Positions 12,082 through 63,511 of a DNA stretch of 64,000 nucleotides are shown one piece after another. Source of the DNA: Rugalucina vietnamica. Taxonomy: Eukaryota; Mollusca; Bivalvia; Lucinida; Lucinidae. Position 1 is the stretch's first letter; the number at the start of each line of letters is the position of its first letter. Made by a program: the position numbers and the translations under genes. The notes beneath the pieces were generated by a model. That model worked only from the letters and a program-made list of their open reading frames with translations, searched no databases and had not been told where the DNA came from. The stretch is taken from NCBI GenBank assembly GCA_964017185.1, contig OZ024875.1, positions 60,445,043-60,509,042 on the forward strand. The letters are read 5' to 3'.

Positions 12082-12094
12082 CTGAAATAATGAC

Positions 12095-12313
12095 CATCAC
12101 GAAAGCATGTCCGTATAATGTATACCCCTTATACCCCACTTTTATATAGCAAAACTGGGATATGATGGGTTATACCTAATTTTCTTATTTTTGCTCCAAA
12201 ACATAGATTGTGGGTACTCGTTAGAACCGCCTCGGCGAGGTGGTTCTAACGTGTACCCACAATCTATGTTTTGAGAAAAAGTATCAAAATGTTGGGTAAG
12301 TTTTCGTAATGAA
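12095..12313 (-). mobile_element. Splice-adjacent MITE, copy 2
   Basis: TIR-like ends CATCACGAAAGCATGTCCGT (12095 onward) and GTAAGTTTTCGTAATG (to 12313) flank a long hairpin, GTTAGAACCGCCTCGGCGAG / GGTGGTTCTAAC, with outer arms ACATAGATTGTGGGTAC. The left end, read on the minus strand, is 13 nt upstream of the Ly6 exon acceptor at 12082. Confidence 0.85.
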
Positions 12314-41782: not shown

Positions 41783-41831
41783 ATGGCCAAAGTCCTGTGT
41801 ATGATATGCTCATCTTTAATCATCGCATCAT
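41783..41831 (+). CDS. Receptor exon 1: start codon and signal peptide
   Basis: ATG 41783 gives MAKVLCMICSSLIIAS, a short hydrophobic leader. The donor at 41832 (T|GTAAGT) is phase 1 and joins to give L-YHHVTAQPQ. An acceptor-like TTTTTTTTCAG at 41739-41749 suggests an upstream non-coding exon. The apparent 82-aa ORF continuing to 42031 is intron read-through. Confidence 0.82.
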
Positions 41832-44656
41832 GTAAGTATATTTCTTTTTATCTTGGTAAGATTTGTGATACTAGTCAATTTTACCCGTCTCGACGTAGCA
41901 GTAAGATAATTGCGGCGATGAAGACAAATAAGACACACACATACACACAAACACAATCTCGAATAAGACATAACATGACCAACAAAAAAAAAACCCCCAT
42001 AAAATTGACCTTTGACCTCGATGAACTTTGACCCAAGTGGACCCATAAATCTTAATCAGGGATTTACCTGTATACACTCATCAAGTTTCATGCAAATCGG
42101 ACCAAGGACTGCCGAGATACAGAAATTTGACCTTTGATCTCGACCTTTAAGAAATGAGTCCCTCCGCGGCCGCCCTCATGGTGAAGATCGGCTCAAGGAT
42201 CTGGGAACAAAAATTTGACCTTTGACCTCAATGACCTTTGACCCAATTGGACCCATAAATCTTAATCAGGGATCAACCTGTATACACTCACAAAGTTTCA
42301 TGCAAATAGGACCAAGGACTGCCGAAATACAGAAATTTGACCTTTGACCTCGACCTTTAAGAAATGAACCCCTCGATCTAATATCCGGGGCCGCCCTCAA
42401 CCTTCCCACCAAGTTTGGTGAAGATCGGTCCAAGGACCTGGGAACAAAAATTTGACCTTTGACCTCGATGACCCTTGACCTGATTGGACCCATAAATCTT
42501 AATCAGGGATCAACCTGTATACACTCACCAAGTTTCATGCAAATCGGACCAAGGACTGCCGAGATACAGAAATTTGACCTTTGACCTCGATGACCTTGAC
42601 CTTTAAAAATGAACCCCTCGATCTAATATCCGGGGCGGCCCTCAACCTTCCCACCAAGTTTGGTGAAGATCGGCCCAAGGACCTGTGAGAAGTAGGGGAA
42701 CAAACATAAAAAAAAAAAAATTGACCTTTGACCTCGATGACCTTGACCTTTCAAAAAATGAACCCCTCAAGCTAATATCCGGGGCCGCCCTCCACCTTCC
42801 CTCAAAGTTTGGTGAAGATCGGACCAAGGACCTGGGAGATACAGAAATTTGACCTTTGACCTCGATGACCTTGACCTTTAAAAAATGAATCCCTTGAGCT
42901 AATATCTGGGGCCACCCTCAACCTTCCCACCAAGTTTGGTGAAGATCGGCCCAAGGACCTGAGAGAAGTAGGGGAACAAACAGAAAAAAACATAAATTTG
43001 ACCTTTGACCTCGATTACCTTTACCTTTCAAAAAATGAACCCCTCAAGCTAATATCCGGGGTCGCCCTCTACCTCCCTCCAAGTTTGGTGAAAATCGGCC
43101 CAAGGACCTGGGAGGAGTAGGGGAACAAACAAACAGACAAACAAACAGACAAACATTGCTCAAATTATAGTATGATTCATGATTAAAATGAAGAATGTGC
43201 TGTGCAATCAACTAGAAAGCGGGAGATACAAGCAGCAAAGCAGGCCCTTCTTCTCGAAAAGAGGCAAAAACTGACCAGCTTTACCATAAATGGATCGTTT
43301 TATAGTGAAAATTAAAGTGCAAACTAAACATATATTTTCTACGCAGTTTTAAAGGTTTTTGGAAGTATTAAATGAACAAAAAATAAATCAAAACAAAATG
43401 TTGTCCATATAATGTCAGCGTTCGCATATGTGTAGGCGGAAAGTTATAATTCATACAAAGTTTGCAGTTTTTGCCATATTTCCTCATATTTGCGACAGGC
43501 TACATTAAATCAGCAACGGTGGACATAAATTAGCGATTATCATGATCATTAGGCGCAATTATCTGTCCTTGTAACCCTTTGGCACGTGGTTGTTTATTTT
43601 GTTTTGCAAAAGTCAATTTACTCTAAGAATTTCTTGTAACAATTATTAGTTCATTGGATTCATATACATCATACTATTTACTTGATATAAATCTGAGGTT
43701 ACTGGACAGTAACTTGTCAAGGACGTGCCACAATCATTTTCAGTTGATAATATGCATGCAGCCTCAAAGACCATGTAAGTTGTCCAGGGTGTATCACATT
43801 TCATAAATCATGATTTCATTTCAGTATATCATCATGTGACCGCACAGCCACAAAAAAGCCGTCCTAAACCCAGTTTGCCGTTCGCCGGGTTCGGCCCTGG
43901 GACTCTTTCCTCTGCTGGTTCCCAGTTACGTCTGCGGGGACTGTGTAGAGACGGCTGGCAGGAGGGTACCAGCCATGATCTCTATGGAAACGAAATCCCT
44001 ATTTGTATAAAGATTAACGACAAAGCCCAGACATGGTCTGAGGCAAGAGACACGTGTAGACAGGACTTTGGGTTCCTGTTGAAATTGGATTCACCCATTA
44101 AGGTCGATGAAAATGATTTGATGTCCTTGGTGCTTTCGAAAGGTATTTACTTTTTTGCAATATTATATAGACCATCTGGTTGTTTTTTATTCTCTTACAG
44201 TAGTATAAAACCATCTGGCCGAATTTTTTATTTATTCTTTTACAATAGTATAACACCACGAATTTGTTGTTTTATTCTTTTACAATAGTATAAAACCATC
44301 TGATCAAATACATTTTTTTTTTCTTTTACAATAGGATGAGACCATCTAGTCGTTTTGTTTAAATTTCTTTTACAATAGTATAAAACCATCTGGTCGAATT
44401 TGTTTATTTATTCTTTTACAATAGTATAACACCACGAATTCGTTGTTTTATTCTTTTACAATAGTATAAAACCATCTGATCAAATACATTTTTTTCTTTT
44501 ACAATAGGATGAGACCATTTGGTCATTTTGTTTAAATTTCTTTTACAATAGTATAAAACCATCAGGTCGAATTTGCATTTATTCTTTTACAACAGTTTAA
44601 TCCATCTGGTCGAATTTGTTTTAACTTTTTTACAGTAGTGTAAGGCTATCTTGTTG

Positions 44657-44703
<47 letters not shown>

Positions 44704-45823
44704 AATAGTATAAGACCATACGTTCGATTTTGGCATGTTTTATTGTTAGATGTTACATCTGAAAGGTTGATTAGTTCCGCACTCTCCATAACATGCATAT
44801 TATAGGTATTGCTTGATACAGTGCGGTTTCGTCCTTATATTTGTTTTTGTATTTCAGGTAAAATTTGTATTTCTGTGGTCTAGATTAACATAATGTTGAT
44901 ATATTTTTATAGTAATACGCATAGAATTAGCGCTCATACGAATATACTTACTCGTATAATGGTTTATTATTTTACGTAACTAGTGCTCAAAGCCACACTT
45001 AACTTTAAGGTGACAGGTTGAAATCAAATTTAACTTTCAAATGTCGTTATAACAACGTTTATCAGACGATGATGTATATAATAACTTAAATAACTCAAAT
45101 AAGAAAATAAACATCGCAGTAAAACCACTGGAGATATCAATCTTGGATATGTGCCATTTTGAAGAACAGGACATTCACATAAGAAAAGCCTTGAAATCAT
45201 AAATAGTGAATTCAAAATTTATGAAGTCTTGAGATTGTAAATGTCTACATTAATACTATTATGCAAGACGTCACTTGGCTAAAAGCCAGAAATGTTAAAA
45301 TCCGAACCGATTAAAACCTGAAACTGTCATTGTTACAGGTCACCACACAGACCTTACTGTGAACCACACAGACCTTACTGTGACTGCTTTCTCTCAGTAT
45401 CATTAACCAGCACAATCACATGTGCTTAAAACTGACCCTTTGCAAGGTCTAGATATAGAAATAATGCTACTACCGAGTGGGAGCAAGAAGATCTATAGAT
45501 AAAAATGAAACCGAGATCCTTTAAGAGCAGTGAGCATATTAATGAGAAAAGGGATGGGCCATACCATTGAAGAAACGACATTTCTATTGTCCTATACAAT
45601 TACAGTTTATTATAGTTCTAAAATCGCATTTTCATGGCCTCGTTACAGGTATCACCAATGTGTGGACTGGAGTCCACACCGACAACAGTCATCTGATCTG
45701 GGATGATCTGGTCCCGACACAGTTAATACCAAACAAGTGAGTGCATATGAAATGTTCTTGACATAATATGTGTTACTTTTTATCTGCAGAAACAGAATAA
45801 CATGATGTCTAGCCTTAGTAAGT

Positions 45824-45872
<49 letters not shown>

Positions 45873-48800
45873 AGAGGGAGAGAGATATGTCGGGACTAAA
45901 ACAATGCTCACATGCTCTTAAGTTGATGATAGTGAAAATACGTACTCTGAGACTGACGAACTCATGACATCCGGGCCCTGCCACCAAATCAGGGATGGAT
46001 TAGTCTATTCTATACGCAATCTGAATGTTTTGACGAATAGTTAACCATCTTAAATTATACTGATGATCTTCTTTAAAAACTTGAATATATTTTCGTATTT
46101 ACAGTTTCAACCAGTCCAGCACACGACCATGGAGTTGGAGTGATGATAATCCAAATAAACTCTCACAGTACTGTGGCAGACTGAGCCTTGAACATGGCGA
46201 TGATGATAAAAGAAAGAAGCGAAAGAAGAGACAAGTACTCAACTTTGATACATCAGAAAGTGATACAAATGACCGTCTGTTTGGAAGCTCTGACAGTTTG
46301 TTTGGACAAAACTCTGAGAGTAGCTCATCAAGTAGCGATGGGTATCCTCAAGCCAGTGCATTTCAAGAGATGCTGGCACGTACCCAGTTTAATGATCGAC
46401 TGGCTGAGCTACCCAGAGCAGCTCTAGGTGTCCCGAGTGCCCAGCAGTTACCTGGAACAGGCCTGTTGGGCGACAACCTTCAAAAAGGAGGAATAGCGAC
46501 TGTCTCACCACTATATTCTCAAACAACTGTAAATTCTGATAGTGACTCAGACAAGGAAATGTCTCAACCTGGTTCACTTGACCTACTTAAAGATGCAGCG
46601 AATTTAGGATTTCAAGCGAACGCGAATATGCATAATATAAATCCACAAACAGGTCATTTCACCCAAGGGCAGCTGTTCAGTCAGCCCAGTCCAACGGTTG
46701 CGTCAAGTTTGGTTGGTTCTGTAAAAGATCATGTGGACAAATTGGGTCTTGGTGGTGATTTGCAAGCCCCGTCTCCGACAGAAATACTCGAAACTTTAAC
46801 CGAACAGATGAATGAAGGTGGGATGCAAAGTAATGATAATATAAACCAAGACGTGATCGGAATGCTATCGGCACTTAAAGAATTGAAAGGAGACAGCAAT
46901 ATGGAAAGTAAAACAAATGATAACTTTAACATTGAAAGTCCCGGATTGATGCATGTAAATCCAACAGCTCAAACTATATTTAATACTAAGACAAAACCAC
47001 ACACCGATACAAATCGTTTCAAAAGTCACCATCCAACTTTTAGACAAGACCTTCTTAGCCCTCCTACTACTGTCTCACCATTATTAATGAACGCCTTTAT
47101 TGGACAAGAAAACAAAAATTCCGATGATTCGTCGTCTGTCTCAGAAAATATTAAAGATCTACTACATGATGTTGCCAGTAATTCAGATTCGAGTCACAAG
47201 GATCTCTTAGATTCGACAAAAAATTTGTTAAAGGAAATGCAACCAACCGCACCCAGTCATTCAGAAACTTTAGAAGTTTTATCAGACAAATTAAGTGAAG
47301 GGATTACTGCACCTTCAACAAACCTGTTCAATAATAATTTTCAAGGAAGTGACAAGACTGTTGATGACTCTGATTCCAGTAGTTTCGCATCTATTGATCC
47401 TATTTCTAATGCCAAAGAAATTTCTGAGAAATTGACAGAAATTCAAAAAGAAATGTTACCTACTGATGAACTAATATCTGACGACAATAAGAAAATGGAT
47501 ATTCTATCTCCCGAAGGAAACACTGACATGATTTCTGACCTTCTCAAAAGTAATTCCGATGTTCAGTCCAAATCTACCGCGGATGATGGTGATCCTTTGG
47601 TACAGAACAAAGATTCCTATTCTGATCGCAGCAGTGATGACCTTATGACCAAGATAGAGGAAACTATATCTGATTTGCCTCTAACAGATGATAATCCAGC
47701 CACTGATCCTGCTGACTTGAAAATTCCAAGCGACGATAGTAGTTTGCTTTTGGACAAGAAAGATATGAATCTTAACCAAGATATGTTAGATATTGTCAAC
47801 TCAAATACCGACGCTAGTACAGACGATACAGACAACGATGCCGAATCCATCTTACAAACAATATCTACAGACGACACTCCTTCATTACAGGAAACACTAA
47901 CAGATCTTAAACCAGATAGTGAGAATATTTTAAAACATGAAACCGACGAAAATGACCAAAGTATTCTTAGCCCTTTAACAAATGATGATGGTAAATTGAA
48001 TGAAATTGTTGAAACATTGGAAAAAACTACAGGTTTATCTTCAGATGATACTCCCAAAGAGACACTTCCTTCAACAGATTTCAGTGACGATAAGACTATA
48101 GCTGAAAATCTCAAAGATTACTTGTCGATGACAAAATCGGTTAGCGATAAGCAAGACTCAGATGATGCTTCTGTAGACAGTCCTACTGATGGTGTTTCTG
48201 TTGTTGAAAATATTCTGGATGAGTCGGATGTTTTACAGAAAGAAAATGATTCTGACAGTACAAATGAATCAAATCTTGAATTAGGTATACCGGATACAGA
48301 AGAAAGAAGTGAGGCGAAAGCAATGGTTAACACAATAGAAGACATCGATGACATCGTATCCTCAGAAACACCAGATTTAACTGAAAATGATTCACAACTT
48401 CCAGCTCAAGATGCTGCTGACAAGGCAGAAACAACGATAAACGACCAGACATCGGTTATAACTGATGATTCAGAAGATCAAGTAGAACAGCTACTATCGG
48501 ATCTTGGACTCAATACTACAGATGATGGAGTTGATAATAATGAAGATACAGATAATATAGAGTCTGAAACAGGTGTTCGAGAACTCGAGGAGCCAAGTGA
48601 CACGAAGACAATAGCTCTGAATGATGGCGAAGAATTAAATGCAAACGAGCCATCAGACATGATTGCAACAAACGAAGATACGATTTCTGATATTGTCGAC
48701 GATATTGATTCTACACCATACAGTGAAACCGAAGAGGTTTTAAATGACGGAAGCGATTTGCTTGAGAACTACAATAAGTTGTTGGGAAATAACGAACAAG

Positions 48801-51800
48801 ATGCAGATATAAACGATAAGCTCGTAGAAGAGATAAATGACCTTGCAGAAACGGTCACTGAAACTAAACAAGGCATGTCTGGAAAGACAGAATTACCTGA
48901 TGATACAGATATACCCGAGGCTGCTGAAACTGGCGACATAAGAGAGAAGGTAGTAGAAGAAATTCTGAACCCTGATACTGATACAACACTAGAGGATATG
49001 GTAGAAAAGGTAGAAGAAACCATTAGCCCTGATGTCGATTCGCCCCTGGACGACTTAAAAGATAGGATCGAGGAAACAACGAACTCCGATACAGATTCAT
49101 CATTGGATGATATAATTGAAAAGGCAGAGGAAACAATCAGCCCTGATGCAGATTCACCTCTGGATGACTTAAAAGATAAGGTTGATGACTTAAAAGATAA
49201 GGTGGAGGAAATTACAAACACTGATAAAGATACTTCGCTGGATGATTTGTCAGATAAAGTAGAGGGAGCACTGAACACTGATACAGATACTTCACCTGAT
49301 GATTCTATGGATGATATGCCTAGTTTATCCGAAGCATTATCACCTGAAAACGAGAAAACAGCCATTCTACCTGCTGTTGGTAGCCAAGAAATGGAGCTGG
49401 GGACGTGCCGACAGAAGCTGCCGTCAGTCTGCTTCTCATATCAACTTGAGGTTAAAAACAAAGGTAATGGAACTTTGGTTATTTTGAAATAAATATGAAC
49501 TTTTAGGATTGCTATGTACAACGATGCATACACATGCAGACACATTAATGATTTTATATTTTCATTAATATTTGTTAAAATGAAGGGTGATATACAGGTA
49601 GTATGGAAAAAAATCATAACAAAGACTAAGAATCATACTTTACAATATGAAGTATATTTCTTGTTAGTATAAAGTGCACATATTCCGCTTACCAAAGTCA
49701 ATTAATGTAGTCTAAGGGACACATGTTTTTTTTCCATTCATCGAACTGCTCTTCTAAAAATATATTTGCTTACAGTTTCCACTTGCGAGAAGGGTTGGTA
49801 TGGTCATATTCTGCACAACAAGTGTTATCGAATCATCAATACAAAGCAGAGCTATAGACAGTCAGCAGCACAATGCCAGAGCCTGAATGCAAACATAGTA
49901 GAAGCTGAGACCGAGTTCGAGAGAATGTTTACACTACTGGCAGTTTCCATGGACGGGGTACTTTTCAGAGGTAAATCAAATGAATTAAACAAATATGCAT
50001 TTTTGGTGAAGAAGATATTATACGGGTTGTAGGCAAACTAATCAAGATGCTTAAAAATGTGCAAAAAATTGTTCAGTCACAATCTAACAATGATGCTGTT
50101 GTTCCGTCATAGAAAATGGAAACTGACTGGTCTAAGCTTTTGTTAGTTGCTTTTAAGCTTTTAAACAGCTGGGCTTCGAATAAGCAGGAAAACATTGGGG
50201 AACGCCATAAACTCAATAATATTGCGTTTAACGTTGAACAGATGATTGGCTATTTTGACGAAGTGTTCTGATTTTACTGTCGGCATGATTGATTGTGAAA
50301 AATTAACCTGACAATAACTACAAATACGGACAGATGGATTTGTTCAGTAATTTGTTATATCTCTTCATATAATATATGGTAAAAGAGATCAAACTCCAAG
50401 ACTGAATTATTTGATTTTATATATTTCCCGACTAGTTTCGGTGCATTAACTTTGTCAAGGGACATCAATAAACAACAATGGAGAATGATGACATCAACGT
50501 CACACGACGTCAATGACAACGACGTCAAAAAATGATAATGACGTTGGCGTAAAAATGGTGATTCTATAATAATAAGCATGCAGTTCAAGAAAACAGGATA
50601 TCTCTTCACCATTTTCTAATAGCATTGCTCGCTCCTCATGAAGTTTTAGGAACACAGACCCTTAACAGAAAAACGAATGCAAACCTCCAGCTTTTTTATC
50701 ATTCGAGCCACCACATGGGAAAACCAACAATCTGCATAGGCGAAAACAAAGGCGCAGATCAGCTTCGCAGTAACTGCGAAGCTGATCAGCGCCTTTGCTT
50801 TCGGTACTCGGATAGTACAATTCCTCTTCTACTTAAATCCGAAATTTCAAGCTTCTAGCTTCTCATCAGGAAAACATGTCCATGTATTGAATACCCCCTC
50901 AAACCCCACTTTTATATAGTAAAACTTGGGTATGCAGGTGTATATCTATTTTTCTTATTTTTGCTTCAAAACATAGATTGTGGGTACTCGTTAGAACCGC
51001 CTCGGTGAGGCGGTTCTAACTTGTACCCACAATCTATGTTTTGAGCAAAAATAAGAAAAAAAAAATTCAATTTTTTTCTAATGAAAATTCCAATTTTTAC
51101 AAGTTGAAAAAATCTGTATATTATATGGGCGTGTTTTCGTAATGTATCCACAGGAACAAAGTTCTGGAGGAGACCAGCACAAGCAGGTGTTTGTCAGTAC
51201 TATGATGAAGCCGGGATCAAGGATGCCAACAACTGTAACAGAGCTCTCAATGCCATCTGTGAGAAACCAGCTGGTCAAACAGGTATCTGAGATTTTGCTA
51301 TAGACAGCAATAGAATGGTTTCAATAAGTTGACCCTTAATTTGAAGCTATTCAATAATACTTTTGAACGTTTTCACTGCTTCCAAACAGAATGTTTTGTG
51401 TATTTTCTGAGCTAATTTCCACTAATTTCTGCCAATATTGATTTTTTTTCTGACCACATTACCTGGATTTTGACTGGACCACGAATAAGCAAAAATTACA
51501 GACAAATGTATTGGAGATTCTAATCCATCGAAAAATATTAATCCAAATTCCAAAGGATCAAGATTTTATATTTTATTTTAAAGTAGGAATAGAAGGCACA
51601 GAGAGAACAGTCTTAATTTCGATACATGATTTAGTAACCTTTCAAGTCAGAATTTTGGCGAAATTTAAAATCAATGTTAAATAAAGCACGACGCTTACAT
51701 TAAAATTGAATAAGCTGAATCAACAGTTACAGGTGATAATTCTGCAACTAGTCAACATATAAATGAGGGGGGAAACTTCACATAATCTTAACACGTTTCT

Positions 51801-54800
51801 TCTTATTACAGCTGTTCTACCAGACAACAATCCCGAAGATTCTGAGAAACTTGTATATATGATGGCAAATAGAGACATTATTCTCCCATGTGGTCTGACT
51901 AATACAACGCACGAACTACCGGTAATGTGGTTCAAGGATGGTCTTCTAGTTTCGACAATCACTAGTGGTTAGTCCCTTAAAGAAGCCTTCCAAACTCAAA
52001 TAAGTCTAGAAAACGAGACAGGAAAATAGTAATATTAGAGTTTGAACATGCATTAGACAGTCGATACAAAGATCAGTATTAACCCAAATTAAGGTTGAAC
52101 CATTAACTCTTCTAAGAAACTGATTTTTAAACTGGTTAAAATTTCTGACTCCCCAGAATAATCTCTTAACTAATCATAGAGCAACAACTTTTCAGATGAT
52201 AGTGAAAACCCATCATTAATTCTTAACCGTGATTTGGTGAAGAACATCCGATTAAAGACGAACAGGGATATGTCTATGGCAGCCTTACAGGGCAGATATT
52301 GGTGTGAAGTATGGGACACACATTCTTCTGCTGTTGCTGGGGATTGGCCACTCAAAAGACGATCTAGTGCATACGACATACGGTTTTCAGGTTTGTTCAG
52401 TTTGGACCACCTCTCTTTGAAACAGATCCATAAGTGATAACACAAGCAGTCACGAACGACATTGACGTGAAGTACCTTGAAGCAACGTGAAAGGGCCAAC
52501 CAAAACACCATTCTAGGTTTTATTGGGCCTGTTCATTTAAGCAAATTGCATCCTCGACACTGTTTTTGCCATCCAGTCTAGCTGTAATGGACAATATTGT
52601 TTGTAAAAAAGGACCAGAAAATTTAAATATAAAGCTACAATATAAAATCTGGAAGGCTCAGCTGTCTAAGTACCATTCTGCAGCAAGATAATAAACACTT
52701 AGTTTAACATGCTGACGTTACGAAAACGATTTGATGCTATTATGATGTGATTCCAATTGTAATACACAGTGTTTATACCAGAAAACACGAGTTTTTATTG
52801 TCAGTGATGTCTAACAAGCACAGCATTAATTGTAATTAAATAGTTGCAACTTCCTTTGACCTTTGGTTTGACAATGATTGTAAGAACTCATTATAATTTG
52901 TCTAAGCTTTCGTTTTCTAGACAATGTCACGAATGTACATGATGCCTGTAAAATGAGTCTTTGCAAAGACTTGGCGATCAAAATTAGCAGTTTTATATCC
53001 ACCAACAAAACATTCTTAAGTTGACTATGTATTTTTCGTAACAGACGTGATGTCTTTCCATGGCTCTATGGCTCTCAACCAGTTCAGTTATAAAGACCAG
53101 ACTCTGTTTAACTTGATGGATAAGACGTTCCCAAGCCTCGATGCTATAGAGACTGATCTAAAGAGAGTCTTCAGAGATGTACTACCAGTACTGAGAGGGA
53201 CGCTGGATTATGTTAGCGGGGTTTATGCGCACGTGGATAGAGTCAGGTAAAATTAGATATCCTATATCTATATCTGCTTTGAATGTTCATCCCTTCTTTC
53301 TTTACTTTTTTGTAGCATTTATTGCTGTGCGTTTCGGCATCATGTGGAATTCTGTATAAACGGATTTTATTTTCATTTACCAAGAAGATGAGCCTTTTAC
53401 AAGTTTTATCATAGTGTATGCATATTATAAGTATAAAAAAGGTTAGTCATTATATTGTAGCATAGAAATTAGAAATTAGAAACAGATAATTTCATATATT
53501 ATTTTCATTTTCAGATCCTCTCCAAGAGTGTTAGAGTATCACACCTACATCTCTCTGAACAAGGTCTACAATGATAACGACGAGATTGAGGTGTATAACA
53601 GACTGAAGGGACTGCTCAGGGCGGTGCTAGGAAATGCTCAGTATATGTCCAACCTCCCAGGCAAAACACCCGTCACCACCTTCAGGACAATGGCTTTACA
53701 GAGTACAAGTAAGATATCTACACCCCCTATTCACACACGGAATACTCTGAACGCGAAGTAGACCCAATTTGCAGTATTTGTAATGATTATTGCTTAACAT
53801 GGTGTATAGATCTAACTAATATGTAGTGTAATCCAATCATATTATTTACTTTAATTTTTACTTTTTTTCTGTAGAAAAATAAAATTGAAATACCATCAAC
53901 TCATATAAGCACGTTGTCGTTTTGGTGGGACAATGGCCCACAGTATAGAAAATAAAAATAAAAATAAAACTGAGATCATTTAAGAGCAGTGAGCATATTA
54001 ATGAGATCGGGAATGGGCCATACCGCGGTTTCGGCTACTTAAGCCTCTACAGTGACCCTATATTCCCAGATTGGACGCCAAAGAACGTGGCGTCCCATAT
54101 GGGGTTACTCTGTTTATTTGCTTAGACGAGTCTTTGAAAGAAAAAGGAATACAAAGTTAAACATTTATTGAATAAAACGCATTTACTATTGTAGCATCCT
54201 GTCCTGCTGCTGAGCTGAGGACCAACAGTCTTAAGTCTATGCCGGGAAGGGTGTTCAAGTTTAGGCATTCTCTGCTAGGAGAAACGACACAGAGTAATGA
54301 AACTTGCAGTAAGTTGATATATAATTTTAAATAAAATCCTAGTTTGATAATAAAGATGTAAATTGTATTTTAACAAAAATTCAAAAAGAGGTTATAAATT
54401 AAAATTGTACTTCTTAAACGCTTTGTTGAATATGAAGTGATCATATTTAAATGCTTTGGCATATTCTCACTTAAAACAGAAAACATCATTAATGACACTG
54501 AGCTGTTTTAGTAAAATAACTTTTTCCGAGGAGAAACCCTATTGAAAATCATGGAATGGAATTTTATCTTCGTTCAAGTTAGTAAAGTAAAGATCGTCCC
54601 CAATATGTTATTATAGGTGCCACTGATCTACGACCAGCTGGGTCTGCGAAATGTCTGGGCGACTTTTACACCGGAGCATACTGGGGTGATGTATTAGCTA
54701 ATGACTGCACACCTATGTCGGATGAAGATGACGATGTAGAAGAAGATCTAAACGAGGAGCCAATTGACGCTTTCAATGAGGATATCTGGGGGAAAACGCC

Positions 54801-57800
54801 ACAGACAGATACTCTTACAGAAATGGCAAAGGTAGGCATACATGGTTGGTTTCTAGTTTTGGATAATATAAAAACTTTATAGACATCTCCACGTTCTTGT
54901 TAAGGTCATTTATAACAAATGCTTTCGAGCACATCATTTCAACCCAAGTAGAACCAACACTCCCTTTAAAATGATAATTAAAATGAAAGTGTTGGGTAAT
55001 AAGCCAATAACAATAACGAGAAACATTCTACAACTATATTGACCAAATGCATTTAAATTGGAAAGGAGTGTTGACTATATGGCCTGTATATGCCTATACT
55101 TTAGCGGCCCAGAACACTGCTATTAAGCTCCAGATGCTGATCCTGTAAACTGAGGACAATAGTTCCATGTCTTATGAATTGATATGTGTTAAGATATTTA
55201 CAAATTCTGTCATCATTTGGTAGAAATTTAGGTTTCCGTGGGGTTGGGGTCAAAATTTCATGACTACAAAAAGGTAGAAATTTTGTTTTTTTCTTGCATG
55301 GTGACGATTGTTGTTACTAATGTTTGTATTTTAGAGCATTCATTCGACAGAAACATGCATGAATCATGTAAAAATGCGCAGAAAATCTTTAAATATTTGC
55401 AGTATGAAACATTGTTTAGAAAACTTTTAGGAGGTACCTGTATAGCATTTCTGCATATTGAATATTAGAATACCATATATATTCTATAAATAAAAGTTGC
55501 AAAAAGTGCCGTTTCCAATCTGGAATCAGTAAAAAACTCTTTAAGAAGTCAAAACTCTATGTGGCATAAGAAGCATGTTATTGCAACAAATTTGTTTGAC
55601 ATTAACATGTACAATTGAATTATTGTGGCCAAATATGTATGATAAATTCTACCTATTTGGTCATGTCCAATGTAGCATAACAGACATTTACACCAGCTAT
55701 ACTACTAACACGGCTACCTATCTCCATAGTTCAACAACTCCATAGTTCAACAATGAAATGCATCTTCAAAAGATCAAGTATCGAATGCAACAAAACTAGA
55801 TTGATTGAACTGCACTTAACATATGCTAGCCAAACCCATTCATGATGTATTGAGCAAAAACCATAAACTATTAAAATCAGATCTGAAAACCTGTGCTCAA
55901 AGTATGGAAATAATAAAACAGAGATACAAATACTATAGATTAGAGGCCGTGTAAAAAACAAGGGAATGTTTGTACAGTGTGTCTCCAAAATTTTGTACCA
56001 TAAAATGATGCACACTATTAATGCTCGTGCCCAACTGATGAAAGTTGATTCTGCAGCATCCGGTTTCAAGTAAATAACATTTCCAATAGTGCAAATTATG
56101 ACCATGTTATACTATTTCATTTTCTATTACTTATAATATGTTAGATTTGCCTGAATGAGTGGCTATAACTGTTTATAATATTTGGGCTCTGGTTTTTGGG
56201 CTCTACAGTATCGTTCCCCCCAAAGAACCAACATGCCACTTTCATATATTGTGTAATACATGGCAACACATATGCATGCAAAAGCTTTTGTTGGTTCTCG
56301 GGGGGGAACAATACTCTATAAAACTTTTTCCTAATTACTATATATTTCATACAAAAAATGATTGTTCTAGCCAAAAATCCCGATCCTGTGGCACGAAACA
56401 TGGAAAACAAATTCTTTTATACAGTAGTGCATTATTCAGGGAAGTTAACATGTGCATAAGAAGACAGATTACCAGCTTTTTGTTTTTCCAAAAACCATAG
56501 GCATTTTTAAATAGAAATGGTCAATGCTTCTTTGTATGGAAAATTTGAACAATTTACTCTTCTATTTGCAGACAACTGTTGATGAAAACAATGTTGAGAA
56601 TATAACGGGTACTGTGGCGAAGATCACATCTGATGCCCTTACATTTACACCAACCGATATCAATAAGATTGCGGACGTTCTTGAGCACACAGCTGATGTG
56701 GAGAAAGTTACGGAAGAGGTAAATTAAACAGAAACTTCCACTTTTGATTGGATTCATTCAAATGGTGTCGGTCAGTCAAAACCTACTTTCGATTTCCTAA
56801 CAATGATAAAAAAGAAGGGAAATGATAAAATAAAGTTATTATTGCATTTGGTTTGCTAAATTGCAATGACATTTATTTCCGTTAGTTTCGCTTGTTCTTC
56901 AAATGTTTGTGTAAAATTTCAGGTTGGGAGGAATGTTATCGAAACAATTGATAAACTGATGACTCTCAGTGAAAAAGAGGTAGAAGTTGCCAACGTAGAA
57001 ACTAAAGCAGCTAACAGGTAAAATCATATACAATGCTTTTCTATTTGATGTATTTTTCTATCCCATCCGTAAGACCAGCTTAAGTTGTCTAAATTAAGAA
57101 CAGTGTACTTCATCCTTATACATGAAAGTAGTATGTAAACTTACTTGGAAGAAGGCAGAAAGTACTTATGTAGAAAAGAAAACAAAAGACATAAAATAAA
57201 TTTTGTATTTTACCAGGATTATCAAAAGTTTGGAGAAATGTGCCGAGAAAGTTGACATGAAAGAGCGAGACAACTTTAGACTGGTTACTGACAATATTGC
57301 CCTGGAGGTGTGGATGCTGAGGGACGACAGTCGACCAGTCATTGGTCTGGCAGCTCATACTGATGAAGTGTCACCTAAGACAGTGTTCAAGCCGAAGGAC
57401 ATTGCTACAGTCTTCAACAAGTCTCAATTGTTTGATGCCAACGTTGACGCTGCCATTGAATTACCCAAGGAAGCGTTTGCACCAAAAGCAAAAGGTATTT
57501 TCGGCTACACGTTTTGATATAATGTGTGAATGTATTTGCACGATAATGTTGAATTATTATATTGGAATGTTCACTTTGAGAAAAAAAGAGATGTACAAAA
57601 TGATATCATAAAGAATGATAAAAAACAACAGATTCTTAAATTTTCATTTCTATTTATTAAATTTGTTTACTTCGGAAAACGACAAAATTACTATCTTTTC
57701 CTTTTATACAAATTGACTTTAAGAACGTCTTTTTCCTCCAATTTCAGGTCAACCGGCGAGAAACAAACTAACAATGATGGTGTTTCGGAAAAGCAAACTA

Positions 57801-60800
57801 TTTGAAATGGCGGCGAAATCAAGTGACGGAAGAGCGATGAATATGGACAGACACGATATCTCCCAACTAAACAGCTATGTGATATCTGCGAGCATTGCTG
57901 GAAGAAAATTGTCAGGGTTAAAAGAGAAAGTCAGGACAATATTCAAACCTCTTAAGGTAAGTAAAATGGAACGTGTAAAACCAGAGGAAGAGGCAATAAA
58001 CGTAGTTCAAAAGAAACAAGTGATTTCACTCAAAGCTAACATTATGTACCAGAAATAGTCATCATGTCAAAATACGACAAAACAATTTAACCAACAGAGT
58101 GTGATTTGAAAAAAGGGCTGTACATCCTGGATTATCTTATTTGCTATGTTCGACATAGTATATAATTTTGCTTATATTTCCTTTAAGGATGATGGTAACA
58201 ACCACAATTGTGTGTTCTGGGATTTCGACCGAAATGAGAAGAAAGGTGGTTGGTCCAGCGAGGGTTGTATCTATGATGGGAGAATTAATGGTCGTGAAGT
58301 TTGTCTCTGTGACCATCTTACCAATTTTGCGGTCCTCTTGGTAAGTATTTCTTAAATAGAATAATTATCTCTTGACACTGTATCTTCGTTTAGAGACATG
58401 TTAGCAGTATAGCAAAATGGAGAAATTGTTTGTTTTTTTTTTTAACTTTTCATTTTTAGACTTCACCCATTACTACATTAAAATCGCCACTAAATCTTAA
58501 AGACCTACTTCTGAAGAAGCTAAAAGTGGTACCACTGTTTATTCGGTTAATGATCTCTAATGATGCAATATGGTCCATAGATCAAAGGACTGTCATAATG
58601 AGCTGATTATCACATCCCTGCAGGGGGTCATAAAGAGGCCCCTAGAGGATAATACCTGTAGTTCCACTTTTTATTGATTTTATGGTCCCTGATAACCTGT
58701 GCAATAAAACTGCCTCCCTCTGCAATCAATAATGATTTTTCCTGTTTTGGCCCCTACCTGTATTCTGAGTCATTGTCATGGCACTAGGTTTTCTAATGTC
58801 CTGTCCCTTATCTAATGACCCTCAATAGACATGGAAATAGGTCTTTAAGTAAGGTATTTGGTCTAGTGAATTTTCAATTCTTTTGAAAATGGTCGAAAAT
58901 TAATAAAAATCTTGGAATTGGAAGATAAACACAATAATAATTTTTCACTCTTGAACATGAGTGAAAAATTATCATAGTGTTAAAAAAGGTTTTGCGAAAA
59001 TATACGCCCGGTTTCGTCTTCATAATGAAGTTTACTGTCTTTAACTTCAATACTGTGTCAGTCTTTTTTTTCAAATTATTGTGCTATGTCTCTGATAGCA
59101 ACATTGAGCTTGATTGAGGGTATTTCGGATGTATAGGAAGTGTTAAAACTTTATACATGTACGTTTCCCTTTTCTTCAGGATTTCTATGGCCAAGAGAAC
59201 CCTATTCATCAGGACCACGAGTTGTCTCTGAGTATTATCACAATTATAGGACTCAGCTTCTCCATCCTTGGTCTGGCATTGACCATTGTCTCATTTGCTT
59301 TCTTTAAGTAAGTATACCATTATAGAAAGTTTCTTAGACAGTAATAAAAACCTCTCGAAAATAATACATAACTTGGTAGACTGTTTATGCCCCCAACCTT
59401 GAAAAAGTTGGAAGGGCATATTGCTTTCGGCTTGTCTGTCTGTCTGTCTGTGCGTCTGTTAACTTTTGAACCGTGAATGCTACGGTTTTGAAATTTCATA
59501 TGCACATTCCTCATGAAAAAATAGTTGACCCGTATTTTTTTTCATGTCCGAGTTACGCCCCTTTTCTGAGTTATGTCCCTTCGAAAACAAAATTTGAAAA
59601 TCGTGTGTGCAAGATATCTCAAAAAGTATTTAAGCTAGAGCCTTCATATTTGGTACACTTGTTTGGGCTGAGGAGTAGATGACCTGATTAACTTTTGAGA
59701 AATTTCCGTCAATGTTTTACAAAAATACGGAAATTTGAAATTTTGATTGATTTTTCCACTTTTCGGTGAAATTTGAAACTTTTAAATGGTGAATGCTAGG
59801 GTTTTGAAATTTCATATGCACATTTCTCATGAAAAAATAGTTGACCCATATTTTTTTTCATGTCCGAGTTACGCCCCTTTTCTGAGTTATGTCCCTTTGA
59901 AAACAAAATTTGAAAATCTTGTGTGCAAGATATCTCAAAAAGTATTTAAGCTAGAGCCTTCATATTTGGTACACTTGTTTGGGCTGAGGATGACCTGATC
60001 ATACTGTGTACATCCTCTTATCTCAATAACCGCACCTCACCCCCATTTTCCTATGTTTTGGGGGTAAAGTGCGGTGTCCACTTATGCTGTAATACCTGCT
60101 GTGATTATATACAGCTTATCAGTGTTGAGCTGCCTCTCTTGGGTAATTATGCAAGGAATGGTCGGATTTACTGTAATCTGATACTTAGAATTCCAGGTAT
60201 TTTACAGTACAAACCAAACCCAAAAATAAGTTTTTGTTCATTTTTCATCAAAATACAATTTAATCAAAATAATTGAAATCAACATAAAAAGTTAAGCGAC
60301 ATTACATTTTCAATGGTCTAAATCGGTTCTGTATTAAGTATTTTGTATAGTCATTTGTACATGCTGCTCAGAAGAGATGTTCCTTACCTGGAATTTCTTA
60401 TCAGAGGCTGCTGAAATGAAATTATCCCTGCTAATTGGTTTTACTGCCTTTAGCACCATGGGTGTCTAATGACCAAAGTGGATTTTTGGAGTTAAGAGAA
60501 TGTACACACTATGTTAACTTTTGAGAACTTTCCGTCAATTTTTTACAAAAATACGGAATTTTGAAATTTTGATTGATTTTTCCACTTTTCGGTGAAATTT
60601 GAAACTTTTAAATGGTGAATGCTAGGGTTTTGAAATTTCATATACACATTCCTCATGAAAAAATAGTTGACCCGTATTTTTTTGTATGGCCAAGTTATAC
60701 CCCTTTTTTGAGTTATGTCCCTTTGAAAACAAAATTTGAAAATCTTGTGTGCAAGATATCTCCAAAAGTGTTAAAGCTAGAGCCTTCATATTTGGTACAC

Positions 60801-63457
60801 TTGTTGGGGCTGAGAAGTAGATGACCTGATTCACTTTTGAGAACTTTCCGTCAAATTTTGACAAAAATACAGAATTTTGAAATTTTTATTGATTCCTCCA
60901 CTTTTTGGTGAAATTTGAGACCTTTGAATGGTGGATGATAGGGTTTTGAAATTTCATATACAGATTCTTCATGAAAAAAAATAGTTGGCCTGTAGTTTTT
61001 TCATGTACGTGTTATGCCCCTTGTTGGAATAATGTCCCTTTGAAAACAAATTTTGAAAATCTTGTGTGCAAGATATCTCAAAACGTATTTGAGCTAGAGC
61101 CTTCATATTTGGTATGCTGGTTGGGGCTGAGAAGAAGATCACCTGATTAACTTTTGGAGACTCTCTGTCAAATTTTGACAAAATTACTCCATTTTTAAAT
61201 TTTTACTTCATTTCTATCTTGCCTGCAAAAAAGCTTACATTCTGTTTCTGGATCGAGGTCAAAACAATCACAACCGAATAGCTTCTTCAGGAAATTAAAT
61301 TTGACTGCATTCGAATGAAATAAATGAATCATACAAACTGCCAGTTTAGGGACAAGCATACAGTTGGGGGCATAGTGTTTTACAAACACGCATTTCTAGT
61401 TTATTTAACAGTGTAACAGACTATTAGAAAATAAAATATAATGTTTGCAGTACTAGAAAAAGTAGCCTCGACAAAAGGTGAATGAAGTTACAATGTACCG
61501 TTGATCGACATAACATGTTCTAAGAATTATCATAAAATTGTTGAATGGTCGGAAAACACAGGACCTTAGCTATCAGTAAAATTTGCAACACAAAATATGC
61601 AATATAATGTTGGTCTAAAAACAAAAAAGATTGGTTATTAAAGCAGAGTTTAACGTATCTAATAAGACTATTATTGGTTTTACCTTTCTCCAGGAAGTTA
61701 CGCCAGGGAAGAGCCCAACAGACCCTCTTCAACCTGGCAGTTGCCCTACTATGTGCTATGCTTGTATTCCTGATTGGCATCAAGCAGACTCATCATTACT
61801 GGCTATGCCTATCCAGTGCTGTGTTGTTGCACTACTTTATATTAGCATCTTTCATGTGGATGTTGATGGAGGCTATTCTACAGTATCTAACATTTGTGAA
61901 GATTCTGGGGACGTACATTACAAGATTTACACTGAAAACAGTGCTTCCTGCTTGGGGTAAGCTATTTATTTGACTGTATTGCTTCTGACAACATAATAAT
62001 GCACACACAGATGAAACTTTTAGTGACTGTAGTTGATGCTTGGTTTCAGAGATGCAATTGAAAATCACATTCGCCTTCTGATATGGGAATATTAGTTCTA
62101 TTATGTTGATGATGTATGTAATATTCCCCAGAACGCAAGGGCGTTATGCATTGCCTATTAATTATATTATATTAATCATATTATATTTATGAACCTAAAG
62201 AGAGTTATGGAAGTTTTTCCATATATCTTGTCTTGTAAGTTTTCGGCTAAACGTTTATATGTATTTCACTGTTTTCTCAATACCTATTCAATTCAGGTTT
62301 GCCACTTGTTCCCGTCATCATTATTTTGTCCCTGGACTATGATCTGTACAAAGGAGGAGACGATTAGTATGTTTTACATAAAACAAATTAGTGGTGATGG
62401 TTTGCCTGACCCAAGATCTGCATGTAATATAGTAAAAGATGCAGTGTTAAAATATTTGTGTTTTTAGCTGAGCATATGAATCTGGAGATGGTTTTCTAGC
62501 GAAGCTTTAGGCAATATTTCATTTTTTTCCTACCAAAATCATATTGTCTCTTGTTACTTATTTTATATTTGTATCAAAGCTTAGCGGTGGAGGATTGTAT
62601 TCCAAGGCCAGGGATCAAAATCGTTGTAGTCGCCGAAAGCGATTGTGGGAATTGTGAAAATACAACAGCTTAAATGTTGACAATATGGCATGATTGTTAA
62701 CGGTGTAACTGGTGATGGTAAGACCTTAACAAACAGTGTTTCAGTTCATATAAGTTTCAGTTCATATAAGAGAACAACAGGTGATGATGGTAACAAATAA
62801 CTAGACAATATATTACTAGTAGGTAATGGTTAAGTTTATGAAAAGAAAAATATGTATTTCTGATTGTTGTGGATATAGTGATAGTTCGATGACAGTTTTG
62901 TAAATTGTAATAAAACCTTGTACTCTAAGACAAAGTCATTTAAGATAATCACTCTTGCAAAGTCAAACTATACGGCCTGAATACGTCATTGTTTTGGTGT
63001 AACATACGGCCTATAAATCGCAGGAATGGGTGTTTTATTTCTTCAATTTCTCAATACAGCTTTCATAAACAACACACAATATTGCATTTACGCATTGGCA
63101 AACATTTAATAGAATTGTAGAAAAACAGAAATGGTCATTATTGAAAAGTTATACACCGAATAGATTCTATTCGAATAAATTTTCTTGGAAACAAATTTCA
63201 CCCTCATATTTATGTATATTCATTCTCTTAACTTATGCGATGATACATTTATAATTTCAGTTGCTGGATGAGCCTACCCGCCTTCTACTATGGCTTTGTT
63301 ATCCCGATAAGTTGTATCATCGTCACCAACATAATCATCTTTATTATCACCATCATCAGTATCTTCAGGCGTGGTAAAGGTCTGAGGACCAACCAGAAAA
63401 AGAAGAAAGTCGCCATGACGAACCTTCAGGCGGCTATAACTAGTTTTATACTACTGG
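41783..63457 (+). CDS. Adhesion GPCR with two C-type lectin domains and a giant acidic insertion (3' end beyond window)
   Basis: Twenty-one coding exons: 41783-41831, 43825-44142, 45649-45736, 46105-49463, 49776-49970, 51154-51282, 51812-51967, 52196-52390, 53045-53246, 53515-53708, 54195-54308, 54617-54831, 56572-56718, 56923-57017, 57217-57494, 57748-57956, 58188-58340, 59180-59307, 61694-61956, 62297-62366, 63261-63457. Every intron is GT-AG and every phase matches (1,1,2,1,1,1,1,1,2,1,1,0,0,2,1,0,0,2,1,2, then 1 leaving the window). Together they encode 2,251 residues. Order: signal peptide, CTLD1 split by ~1,065 residues, CTLD2, Ig, SEA-like, hormone-receptor-like, GAIN, GPS, TM1-TM5, start of TM6. 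TM7 and the tail lie beyond 64000. It acts at the cell surface as a putative adhesion receptor; ligand and G protein cannot be inferred. Confidence 0.93.
41990..43165 (+). repeat. Intron-1 satellite with DR1 nuclear-receptor motifs
   Basis: About eight units of 115-150 bp share GGACCAAGGACTGCCGAGAT or CGGCCCAAGGACCTGGGA, AATATCCGGGGCCGCCCTC and the 13-mer TGACCTTTGACCT. The 13-mer occurs exactly at 42006, 42216, 42338, 42453, 42575, 42722, 42850 and 42999, with one variant near 42127. It ends in AAACAAACAGACAAACA. TGACCTTTGACCT is the reverse complement of the DR1 consensus AGGTCA-A-AGGTCA. Minus-strand ORFs across it are repeat-derived. Confidence 0.9.
43166..43824. other. Rest of receptor intron 1
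   Basis: Unique AT-rich intron sequence after the DR1 array, ending in CATTTCATTTCAG at 43824. No repeat or additional exon recognised. Confidence 0.5.
43825..44142 (+). CDS. Receptor exon 2: linker and first half of C-type lectin domain 1
   Basis: Encodes residues 17-122. A Pro/Ser-rich linker precedes the CTLD, which opens at LCRDGWQEG and continues TWSEARDTCRQDFGFLLKLD, the conserved helix-1 W-x-x-A-x-x-x-C pattern. The exon ends after LSKG in phase 1. Confidence 0.9.
44143..45648 (+). repeat. Receptor intron 2: ~45-60-bp repeat, poly-T and shared element
   Basis: From 44190 to 44740 diverged units with CTTTTACAATAGTATAAAAC and CATCTGGTCGAATTTG repeat about nine times, including a larger duplicated block (44215-44340 against 44385-44510). 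A T tract fills 44658-44701. At 45507-45572 is GAGATCCTTTAAGAGCAGTG...GGGCCATACC, which recurs in intron 10. Confidence 0.8.
45649..45736 (+). CDS. Receptor exon 3: middle of C-type lectin domain 1
   Basis: Encodes ITNVWTGVHTDNSHLIWDDL, the VWTGV/WIGL-type strand of the lectin fold. Acceptor TTACAG, donor CAA|GTGAGT, phases 1 and 2. Confidence 0.9.
45825..45866. repeat. (GA)n microsatellite in intron 3
   Basis: About 21 GA units followed by a G-rich degenerate tail. Confidence 0.97.
46105..49463 (+). CDS. Receptor exon 4: CTLD1 core interrupted by a ~1,065-residue acidic Ser/Asp-rich insertion
   Basis: A single 3,359-bp exon covering residues 152-1271. It starts with CTLD sequence (WSWSDDNPNKLSQYCGRLSL, residues 161-180). 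It then leaves the fold at EHGDDDKRKKRKKRQ (polybasic, residues 187-194) and runs open through Ser/Asp/Glu/Thr/Asn-rich sequence to about residue 1246. It returns to the CTLD with LGTCRQKLPSVCF (1250-1262), the closing C-x7-C of the lectin fold. The insertion contains no Cys and no Trp, consistent with a disordered chain looped out between two lectin strands. Its last ~120 residues contain a ~20-residue degenerate repeat (DTDSSLDDIIEKAEET, DADSPLDDLKDKV and similar). The frame has no stop for 1,119 codons. The large antisense ORFs (47617-48114, 48769-49365) mirror its biased codons. Confidence 0.92.
49776..51282 (+). CDS. Receptor exons 5-6: C-type lectin domain 2
   Basis: Exons 49776-49970 and 51154-51282, residues 1272-1379. 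CTLD2 starts STCEKGWYGHILHNKCYRI, has the helix with QSAAQCQSLNANIV, then FWRRPAQAGVCQYYDEAG and ends NCNRALNAICEKP. Normal compact length (~105 residues). The canonical EPN/QPD and WND calcium-site motifs are not evident, so Ca2+-dependent sugar binding is doubtful. The intron contains MITE copies at 50705-50863 and 50864-51144. Confidence 0.9.
50705..50863 (-). mobile_element. GAGCC-hairpin MITE, copy 6 (inverted, truncated)
   Basis: Reverse-orientation copy with a perfect core hairpin (TTCGCAG / CTGCGAA arms). Its far end is lost where the neighbouring MITE begins. Confidence 0.88.
50864..51144 (+). mobile_element. Splice-adjacent MITE, copy 3
   Basis: Left end CATCAGGAAAACATGTCCAT and right end ATGGGCGTGTTTTCGTAATG are inverted, with the central GTTAGAACCGCCTCGGTGAG hairpin. 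The right end lies only 9 nt before the exon 6 boundary, so the branch region and pyrimidine tract of this acceptor must fall in the element. Confidence 0.88.
51812..52390 (+). CDS. Receptor exons 7-8: immunoglobulin domain
   Basis: Exons 51812-51967 and 52196-52390, residues 1380-1496. B-strand cysteine in DIILPCGLTN, C-strand tryptophan in VMWFKDG, F-strand GRYWCEVW. It is bounded by phase-1 introns on both sides, as expected for a shuffled Ig module. Confidence 0.85.
53045..53708 (+). CDS. Receptor exons 9-10: SEA-like domain
   Basis: Exons 53045-53246 and 53515-53708, residues ~1497-1628. Pattern LMDKTFPSLDAIETDLKRVF...YVSGVYAHVDRVR and VLEYHTYISLNK...RLKGLLRAVLGNA resembles the alternating helices and strands of SEA domains that often precede GAIN in adhesion GPCRs. 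No G-SVVV autoproteolysis motif is seen. The assignment is by pattern only. Confidence 0.55.
53960..54125. mobile_element. MITE-like sequence in intron 10
   Basis: GAGATCATTTAAGAGCAGTG...GGGCCATACC is shared with 45507-45572. It is followed by a hairpin TGGACGCCA...TGGCGTCCCA at 54074-54108 inside a longer imperfect inverted repeat (GTGACCCTATATTC / GGGGTTAC). Confidence 0.6.
54195..54831 (+). CDS. Receptor exons 11-12: hormone-receptor-like Cys-rich segment and acidic linker
   Basis: Exons 54195-54308 and 54617-54831, residues ~1629-1738. Cysteines in SCPAAEL, NETCSATDL, SAKCLGDFY and NDCTP with a W (AYWGDVL) follow the HRM pattern commonly found just before GAIN. An acidic linker follows (DEDDDVEEDLNEEP). 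Confidence 0.65.
54832..56571. other. Receptor intron 12 with foldback MITE
   Basis: At 56201-56320 the sequence CTCTACAGTATCGTTCCCCC...GAACCAAC is mirrored by GTTGGTTCTCGGGGGGGAAC...ACTCTAT, a foldback MITE. ORFs at 55238-55468 and 55731-56105 are not recognised and are treated as intronic. Confidence 0.6.
56572..58340 (+). CDS. Receptor exons 13-17: GAIN domain and GPS
   Basis: Exons 56572-56718, 56923-57017, 57217-57494, 57748-57956 and 58188-58340, residues 1739-2032. The helical subdomain A (NITGTVAKITSDALTFTPTD, VIETIDKLMTLSEKEV) is followed by the beta-rich subdomain B and the GPS. The GPS has C1989-VFWDF, GGWSSEGC (2001-2008), CLC (2020-2022) and DHLTNFAVLL. The cleavage triad H2024-L2025|T2026 is intact, so autoproteolysis is predicted, leaving TNFAVLL as the tethered agonist. 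Confidence 0.93.
59180..59307 (+). CDS. Receptor exon 18: TM1
   Basis: Residues 2033-2074: a short linker (DFYGQENPIHQDHE) then hydrophobic LSIITIIGLSFSILGLALTI, the first membrane helix. Phase 2 donor. Confidence 0.92.
59387..61376 (+). repeat. Intron-18 tandem repeat element with ATGCCCCCAAC ends
   Basis: Begins TATGCCCCCAACCTTGAAAA and ends CAGTTGGGGGCATAGTG, an inverted terminal pair. The interior consists of ~300-bp units with GGGTTTTGAAATTTCATATG, CATGAAAAAATAGTTGACCC and AAGCTAGAGCCTTCATATTT. GTCTGTCT repeats occur at 59433-59458. The array is split at 59998 by an unrelated ~520-bp insertion (59999-60515) with inverted ends ACTGTGTACATCCTCTTA / TAAGAGAATGTACACACT. Recurrent ~70-aa ORFs here are repeat-derived. 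Confidence 0.8.
61694..61956 (+). CDS. Receptor exon 19: TM2 and TM3
   Basis: Residues 2075-2162. KKLRQGRAQQTLFNLAVALL opens TM2. HYWLCLSSAVLLHYFILASF and FMWMLMEAILQYLTFVK form TM3, typical of secretin/adhesion class B receptors, including the TM3 cysteine expected to pair with ECL2. Confidence 0.93.
61957..63260. other. Introns around exon 20
   Basis: Apart from exon 20 (62297-62366), unique AT-rich sequence. A small duplication of TTTCAGTTCATATAAG occurs near 62741-62770. No other feature recognised. Confidence 0.5.
62297..62366 (+). CDS. Receptor exon 20: TM4
   Basis: A 70-nt exon joining PAWG to LPLVPVIIILSLDYDLYKGG. It contributes most of TM4 and the start of ECL2. Acceptor ATTCAG, donor TTA|GTATGT, phases 1 and 2. 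Confidence 0.88.
63261..63457 (+). CDS. Receptor exon 21: ECL2, TM5 and start of TM6
   Basis: Encodes CWMSLPAFYYGFVIPISCII (the conserved ECL2 Cys-Trp, then TM5), a basic third intracellular loop (RRGKGLRTNQKKKK) and NLQAAITSFILLG entering TM6. The exon ends in phase 1; TM6 completion, TM7 and the cytoplasmic tail are outside the window. Confidence 0.92.
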
Positions 63458-63511
63458 GTATGTCATAAGTTTTACGAGTTTGATCTCGTATAGCTTAATT
63501 TAGTATATATA

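Follow-up and report, generated by a model that had tools for sequence, protein, structure and literature searches.

A C-type lectin-like domain split by a giant, apparently coding acidic insert in a bivalve adhesion G protein-coupled receptor gene

How could a small lectin fold accommodate a coding stretch of more than a thousand residues inside one of its hairpins? The question is raised by a single exon (exon C) of a gene for an adhesion G protein-coupled receptor (GPCR) in the bivalve Rugalucina vietnamica. The gene lies in a stretch of 64,000 nucleotides, here called the window (GenBank assembly GCA_964017185.1, contig OZ024875.1, positions 60,445,043 to 60,509,042 of the forward strand), and all positions below count from its first letter. 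The two ends of the exon read as parts of one C-type lectin-like domain (CTLD1, the first of two in the receptor) and its middle as an acidic, cysteine-free insert. Taken as a whole, the locus is probably best explained by a translated extracellular insert in a split CTLD, nicked by furin, in a receptor head that bears a long tail. The features of the split are listed here, with residues numbered in the ten-exon protein model:

46105..49463, plus strand: exon C, 3,359 nt, with the C2-bearing strand of CTLD1, the giant insert and, last, the C3- and C4-bearing end of CTLD1.
46172..46174, plus strand: codon of CTLD1 cysteine C2 (residue 175, QYCGRLSL).
46190..49393, plus strand: the insert, ~1,068 residues (181–1248), with 0 Cys, 0 Trp and a net charge of ~−174.
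49406..49408, plus strand: codon of CTLD1 cysteine C3 (residue 1253, LGTCRQKLPSVCF).

Exon C is open from end to end. No stop occurs in the 1,119 codons of 46106–49462, compared to 64 and 157 stops in the remaining two plus-strand frames. The probability of no stop across this frame is ~1e-31 under a Markov model of the window, and the longest stop-free run obtained by simulation was 177 codons (60 sequences of 64 kb generated under each of two Markov models). Both borders are present as splice sites, with the acceptor tttacag/TTTCAA before 46105 and the donor ACAAAG/gtaatg after 49463. Codon-position structure in all five 600-nt pieces of the insert (46193–49192) exceeded that in each of 23 overlapping windows from introns of the same gene. 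Exon C reads as coding throughout, most clearly over its last 2 kb. A preliminary description of this DNA had placed the exon at exactly these coordinates and had called it a real coding stretch by openness, phase and composition, in agreement with the absence of stops, the in-phase exons and the codon-position structure. It is very improbable that the frame is an annotation artefact, belonging to another transcript or a mis-assembly and absent from the receptor. Exon C is outsized next to the 49–318 coding nt of the model's other nine exons and is known from genomic sequence alone; against an artefact, both CTLD halves share exon and frame with the insert, stop-free and between good outer splice sites, and the C-terminal half is backed by a profile score.

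That score was obtained with the Pfam profile Lectin_C (PF00059), for which the cut-off is 22.6 bits. Without the end of exon C, CTLD1 scored 31.0 bits and the match halted at profile position 85; with the insert left in place, it scored 32.6 bits over positions 2–86 only. Removal of the insert and joining of the true end gave 41.5 bits over positions 2–105 of 107, or 39.2 bits when fewer residues were left at the joint. For nine exact shuffles of this end the scores were 31.1–35.3 bits, every one under that of the true end, and the end of the sister domain CTLD2 grafted onto CTLD1 gave 43.9 bits. Six cysteines stand in order in CTLD1, at residues 57 and 77 (long form), 94, 175, 1253 and 1261, and six stand in order in CTLD2. 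The gap between C2 (175) and C3 (1253) is 1,077 residues, compared to 13 residues in CTLD2 and 14–15 in three PDB CTLDs (from alignments). By profile score and cysteine order, the two ends of exon C are read as completing one six-cysteine CTLD. This supports the earlier proposal of a coding insert that splits a single CTLD, and the residue ranges then given for its halves (57–180 and 1247–1271) agree with the ten-exon model. CTLD disulfides pair C1 with C4 and C2 with C3, and we take the insert to lie in the β3–β4 hairpin of the usual CTLD topology.

If the insert were an exitron, or were otherwise alternatively spliced, some or most transcripts would lose it and encode an ordinary CTLD. The preliminary description had raised an exitron on the strength of GT and AG sites near both edges. 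Such sites do exist: 39 in-frame pairs combine a GT in 46185–46330 with an AG in 49250–49400. Scored with approximate, unfitted weight matrices, the best pair sums to 1.5, one unit less than the intron from exon C to D (2.5), which is the weakest of the eight that separate exons A to I. The left-edge donors are weak, however, with all 14 GT sites in 46150–46420 at or below −0.3, compared to 2.0–8.7 for the ten donors of the model. At the right edge, AG 49384 is fair (2.0) but does not share the phase of GT 46235, whereas AG 49397, which does, scores −17. The reading frame would be lost on skipping of exon C by itself and kept on skipping of exons B and C together, which would leave no complete CTLD1. 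The splice-site scan argues against an exitron, which we consider improbable. Within exon C, the strongest donor- and acceptor-like sites (4.0 and 4.4) are mutually in phase and bound 870 nt (46818–47687), which may be spliced out optionally, leaving the insert 290 residues shorter. This in-phase pair and the frame-keeping loss of exons B and C speak for alternative splicing, but neither would give an intact CTLD1. Because ~1% of the GTs in the window reach the median score of the model donors, one donor-like GT is expected by chance among the 130 of exon C.

The insert, described earlier as ~1,065 residues without Cys or Trp, is indeed free of both; at the rate of the rest of the model, ~27 Cys would be present. 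Cut as 1,069 residues, it holds 251 Asp and Glu and 77 Lys and Arg (net −174), with D at 14.8%, S at 11.8% and E at 8.7%. Its description as acidic holds for the whole and not uniformly along it: net charge per 100 residues goes from −2 in the first block to −30 at residues 901–1000, and the rise is rough and uneven. By charge–hydropathy, 10 of its 11 blocks fall on the side of disorder, with 20–26 hydrophobic residues per full 100-residue block. Formula estimates for a coil of equal length give a radius of gyration of ~10–12 nm, large beside the CTLD. The disordered brush envisaged in the preliminary description is therefore right as to disorder and incomplete, as amphipathic helical periodicity and repeats are also present:

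47090..49393, plus strand: part with amphipathic helical periodicity (insert residues ~301–1068), with 22 helix-like segments compared to 8.8 in shuffles.
48932..49294, plus strand: tandem repeat array of 19-residue (57-nt) units, with the approximate consensus LDDLxDKVEETxNxDxDxS.
49163..49203, plus strand: perfect 21-nt tandem duplication inside the repeat array.

From insert residue 301 onward, the helical periodicity of hydrophobic residues reached z 3.8–4.4 in three parts, with a best angle of 95–100 degrees, and the whole insert contains 26 helix-like amphipathic segments compared to 12.3 ± 2.6 in 100 local shuffles. The 19-residue repeat spans insert residues ~909–1041 and gave a self-match score of 222, compared to 72 or less in eight local shuffles. 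Among repeat units 2–6, differences at codon positions 1, 2 and 3 numbered 55, 43 and 89 (190 comparisons each), and the minimum changes per column were 12, 10 and 23. The proportions of nonsynonymous (pN) and synonymous (pS) differences in these units were 0.25 and 0.62, giving a pN/pS of ~0.4 that is rough because the repeat pairs are non-independent and pS is high. The repeats are under protein-level constraint.

An acidic brush that binds mineral or ions, in the manner of secreted acidic matrix proteins, has little probability as the identity of the insert. The Asp, Ser and Glu contents and the net charge would suit it, and the evidence on a phospho-mineral form of the brush suggested earlier is mixed. 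CK2-type [ST]xx[DE] sites lie slightly over shuffles (61 vs 52.6 ± 5.5). Fam20C-type acidic phosphoproteins are enriched in S-x-E, whereas here such sites fall under shuffles (4 vs 10.1 ± 2.8, P 0.014), and a Fam20C-type phosphoprotein was rejected as a candidate. An EF-hand calcium loop was rejected as well; it requires an acidic residue at position 12, where the D-x-D-x-[STP] linkers carry K or R in five of six repeat units and D in one. The hydrophobic content of the blocks and the helical spacing after residue 300 also speak against a brush.

Possible signs of passage through the secretory pathway are also present. The insert has 4 N-glycosylation sequons compared to 14.8 ± 3.3 over 5,000 locally shuffled versions (P 0.0004), while the reversed sequon occurs 11 times against 14.8, and four other residue-x-[ST] controls gave z from −1.7 to 0.2. 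The sequon deficit and the absence of Cys would agree, as expected, with a chain that meets the endoplasmic reticulum. A predicted protease site stands at the start of the insert:

46211..46231, plus strand: furin-type polybasic site RKKRKKR, in which two R-x-[KR]-R motifs overlap (residues 188–194).

This is the sole R-x-[KR]-R match of the insert and lies seven residues past the last CTLD residue before it. The preliminary description mentioned neither this site and the sequon deficit nor the 19-residue repeats and the helix-like periodicity. A plainer account would make the insert a near-neutral, drifting disordered extracellular loop, in which repeat expansion is tolerated on the solvent-facing β3–β4 hairpin and basic residues resemble a furin site only by chance clustering. 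Such a loop would fit the GC content at third codon positions (GC3) of the insert, which at 0.30 is close to the intron GC of 0.33, the perfect 21-nt duplication, the satellite-rich surroundings (33 overlapping tandem-repeat rows) and the first 300 residues, which are without helical periodicity. It is nevertheless unlikely in view of the repeat pN/pS, amphipathic segments at twice the shuffled number, the sequon deficit, the lack of Cys and a furin-type site found solely at the insert start.

The receptor around exon C was reconstructed as two chains. Ten exons, beginning at 41783, 43825, 45649, 46105 (exon C), 49776, 51154, 53045, 53515, 54617 and 56572, join in phase from an ATG and give a stop-free product of 1,632 aa, whose signal-peptide-like start was judged by hydropathy (best 11-residue value 2.8). 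A second in-phase chain (57217–61956) encodes a GPS motif with HL/T, which we take to be the autoproteolysis motif, and the first transmembrane helices. Besides exon C, the parts are, all on the plus strand:

41783..41831, plus strand: coding part of the first exon, with ATG and signal-peptide-like start (MAKVLCMICSSLIIAS); donor CAT/GTAAGT, phase 1.
43825..44142, plus strand: exon A, which encodes the N-terminal part of CTLD1 and its cysteines C0 (57), C0' (77) and C1 (94).
45649..45736, plus strand: exon B, WTGVH strand of CTLD1 and beginning of the long loop region.
49776..49970, plus strand: exon D, first half of CTLD2.
51154..51282, plus strand: exon E, second half of CTLD2, with a C2–C3 spacing of 13 residues.
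53045..53246, plus strand: exon F, between CTLD2 and GPS.
53515..53708, plus strand: exon G, between CTLD2 and GPS.
54617..54831, plus strand: exon H, with a second, short acidic patch of the same receptor (SDEDDDVEEDLNEE).
56572..56718, plus strand: exon I, last of the ten-exon chain.
57217..57494, plus strand: exon J, upstream of GPS.
57748..57956, plus strand: exon K, upstream of GPS.
58188..58340, plus strand: GPS exon, CDHLTNF, with HL/T.
59180..59307, plus strand: exon of the first transmembrane helix.
61694..61956, plus strand: seven-transmembrane (7TM) exon, 7tm_2.
63261..63457, plus strand: further 7TM exon, 7tm_2 profile 143–216, from the open stretch 63244–63465.

The GPS matched PF01825 with 57.8 bits (cut-off 22.5), and 7tm_2 matched with 59.1 bits across profile positions 2–110 plus 34.3 bits across 143–216, the last helices lying beyond the window. 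In the Pfam scan of this GPS/7TM chain the GAIN profile was unmatched, and several matches to adhesion GPCRs in the PDB begin ~35 residues upstream of the GPS. The best solved-structure match of the GPS/7TM part was ADGRG6 (E 4.5e-39), followed by ADGRG2. The adhesion GPCR setting given in the preliminary description is supported by these matches, and the host is read as an adhesion GPCR with two CTLDs, ADGRG-like by the order of its best PDB matches.

On this basis, a path to the split domain can be proposed. The β3–β4 loop of CTLD1 would have grown to 1,077 residues within one exon, at least partly by in-frame tandem duplication, as suggested by the 57-nt units in the stretch adjoining β4. 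The insert would be translated and extracellular, a chain devoid of Cys in which Asp/Ser/Thr/Asn-rich linkers join short, acidic segments of amphipathic helix. Furin would most likely cut after the predicted site RKKRKKR in the Golgi, nicking the loop, and the nicked CTLD1 would become a two-chain head kept together by the C1–C4 and C2–C3 disulfides. The acidic chain would then hang from β4 as a free N-terminal tail rather than a closed loop. Most likely, such a tail would work as a long arm, multivalent and sensitive to charge, by which contacts of the lectin head are restricted or provided, so that access would depend on charge and distance, and it might pass pull to the GAIN/GPS module. A bolder form of this proposal is put forward only tentatively: a lectin domain opened by furin and kept together by disulfides, on whose head a ~1,060-residue acidic string of short helices becomes a free arm that responds to charge or force and operates the tethered agonist of the GPCR. 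If the protein is made as read, it would be an extreme new way of building a receptor head, in which a disulfide-locked domain of ~146 residues can bear, in a tight hairpin, an insert seven times as large as itself and protease nicking is a way of converting a loop to a tail. It would also provide a natural test of the use of long disordered arms by adhesion GPCRs, for ligand access or for force.

Several observations weigh against reading exon C as one translated, secreted and nicked unit. The gene model and its protein are drawn from genomic DNA only, and the junction from exon I to exon J (56718 to 57217) is out of phase as drawn; at least one small exon or alternative site is therefore absent from the model. 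Three-base periodicity is weaker in the first 1.2 kb of exon C than in the remainder, GC3 is lower in the insert (0.30) than in the other exons (0.50), and the first 300 insert residues gave a helical periodicity of z 0.6. Clear repeats occur only over ~130 residues near the insert end, and pS among them is near saturation. Two longer-range self-matches of the insert (82 and 81) are barely above shuffles (72); they hint at older repeats and do not demonstrate how the older part of the insert grew. Two of the nine shuffled CTLD1 ends also reach profile position 106, at lower score, and coverage alone therefore cannot single out the true end. CTLD2, the yardstick for loop length, lies under the Lectin_C cut-off (18.9 vs 22.6 bits, E 0.0027). 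EPN or QPD, and WND, are motifs of calcium-dependent sugar-binding CTLDs; because none was found in CTLD1 (0 of each), ordinary calcium-dependent sugar binding by this domain is unlikely, and a sugar ligand is doubtful. Outside the insert, too, the model has few sequons (2 vs 5.1, P 0.10), and the control motif N..[ST] is high in the insert (z 2.1). A single-sequence AlphaFold2 model of 48869–49462 placed one 10–12-residue helix in most repeat units and a longer helix at the duplication; with a mean predicted local distance difference test score (pLDDT) of 57, a predicted template modelling score (pTM) of 0.16 and helices where the strands of the CTLD end are expected, it serves as an illustration only.

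Parallels to the proposed furin-nicked, tail-bearing head can be drawn with several known systems. Long acidic expansions as such are not rare among animal proteins. CTLD1 resembles long-form CTLDs of PF00059 in its six ordered cysteines, its WTGV strand and its 41.5 bits with the insert out, and differs from them in its C2–C3 distance and in its lack of EPN, QPD and WND. Like SEA and GAIN domains, which are cut yet held together, it is predicted to be a loop-cut domain that stays one unit; in contrast to them, the domain to be cut would be a CTLD whose parts disulfides keep joined, and cleavage would release a very long tail. The receptor shares with ADGRG6/GPR126 and other ADGRG members its best GPS and 7TM match. 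GPR126 offers a precedent for furin cleavage within an adhesion-GPCR domain (PMC6954182), and its domains are CUB, PTX, SEA, HormR and GAIN, compared to the two CTLDs here. Unlike in GPR126, the furin-type site here sits in a CTLD loop that bears the 1,068-residue insert. With exitrons, which are protein-coding exonic introns (PMC10985678), exon C shares a stop-free coding stretch within one exon and in-frame GT/AG pairs, and it differs in that its left-edge donors score below all ten donors scored in the gene. The terms 'GPCR' and 'GPS' are absent from the main text of PMC10140915, on bivalve C-type lectin repertoires, as is 'lectin' from the main texts of PMC12716839 and PMC4302439, on adhesion-GPCR repertoires. 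Among the papers listed in searches of the openly licensed literature for receptor CTLDs, molluscan CTLDs or CTLDs with insertions, none describes such an insert in the text available. The insert, apparently coding, is unusual in size and place, while a CTLD-bearing adhesion GPCR is itself of a known kind.

Candidate relatives of exon C were also considered and set aside. As a transposon or copied element it had no blastn match elsewhere in the window (E 1e-3), and a single tblastn row (E 5.1) was attributed to chance. Pattern searches of viral and prokaryote contigs, collections not meant for animals, gave 1 and 12 matches, respectively, of which 0 were confirmed. A search for a solved structure of the insert returned one row, 'T6 light chain' (E 0.045), taken as chance, and the Pfam hits ZMYND11_CC and Phasin on exon C were under their cut-offs and attributed to composition.

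The window is rich in satellites. Tandem arrays occupy 1–1675, 2620–3982, 14575–15916, 27767–29263 and 42530–43114, with periods of ~455, 128, 454, 165/332 and 276 bp, respectively. Upstream of the gene, a minisatellite at 39406–40279 has ~15 copies of a 57-bp unit with 97% matches; it was rejected as kin of the 57-nt coding repeat, as the two are equal in period and have no DNA similarity. A repeat-rich open frame at 4760–5614 is perhaps an exon of a separate gene. On the minus strand, Cys-rich open stretches at 11045–12169 (CFRCESEYGGLCTDG...) may represent a small gene of the Ly6/uPAR type.

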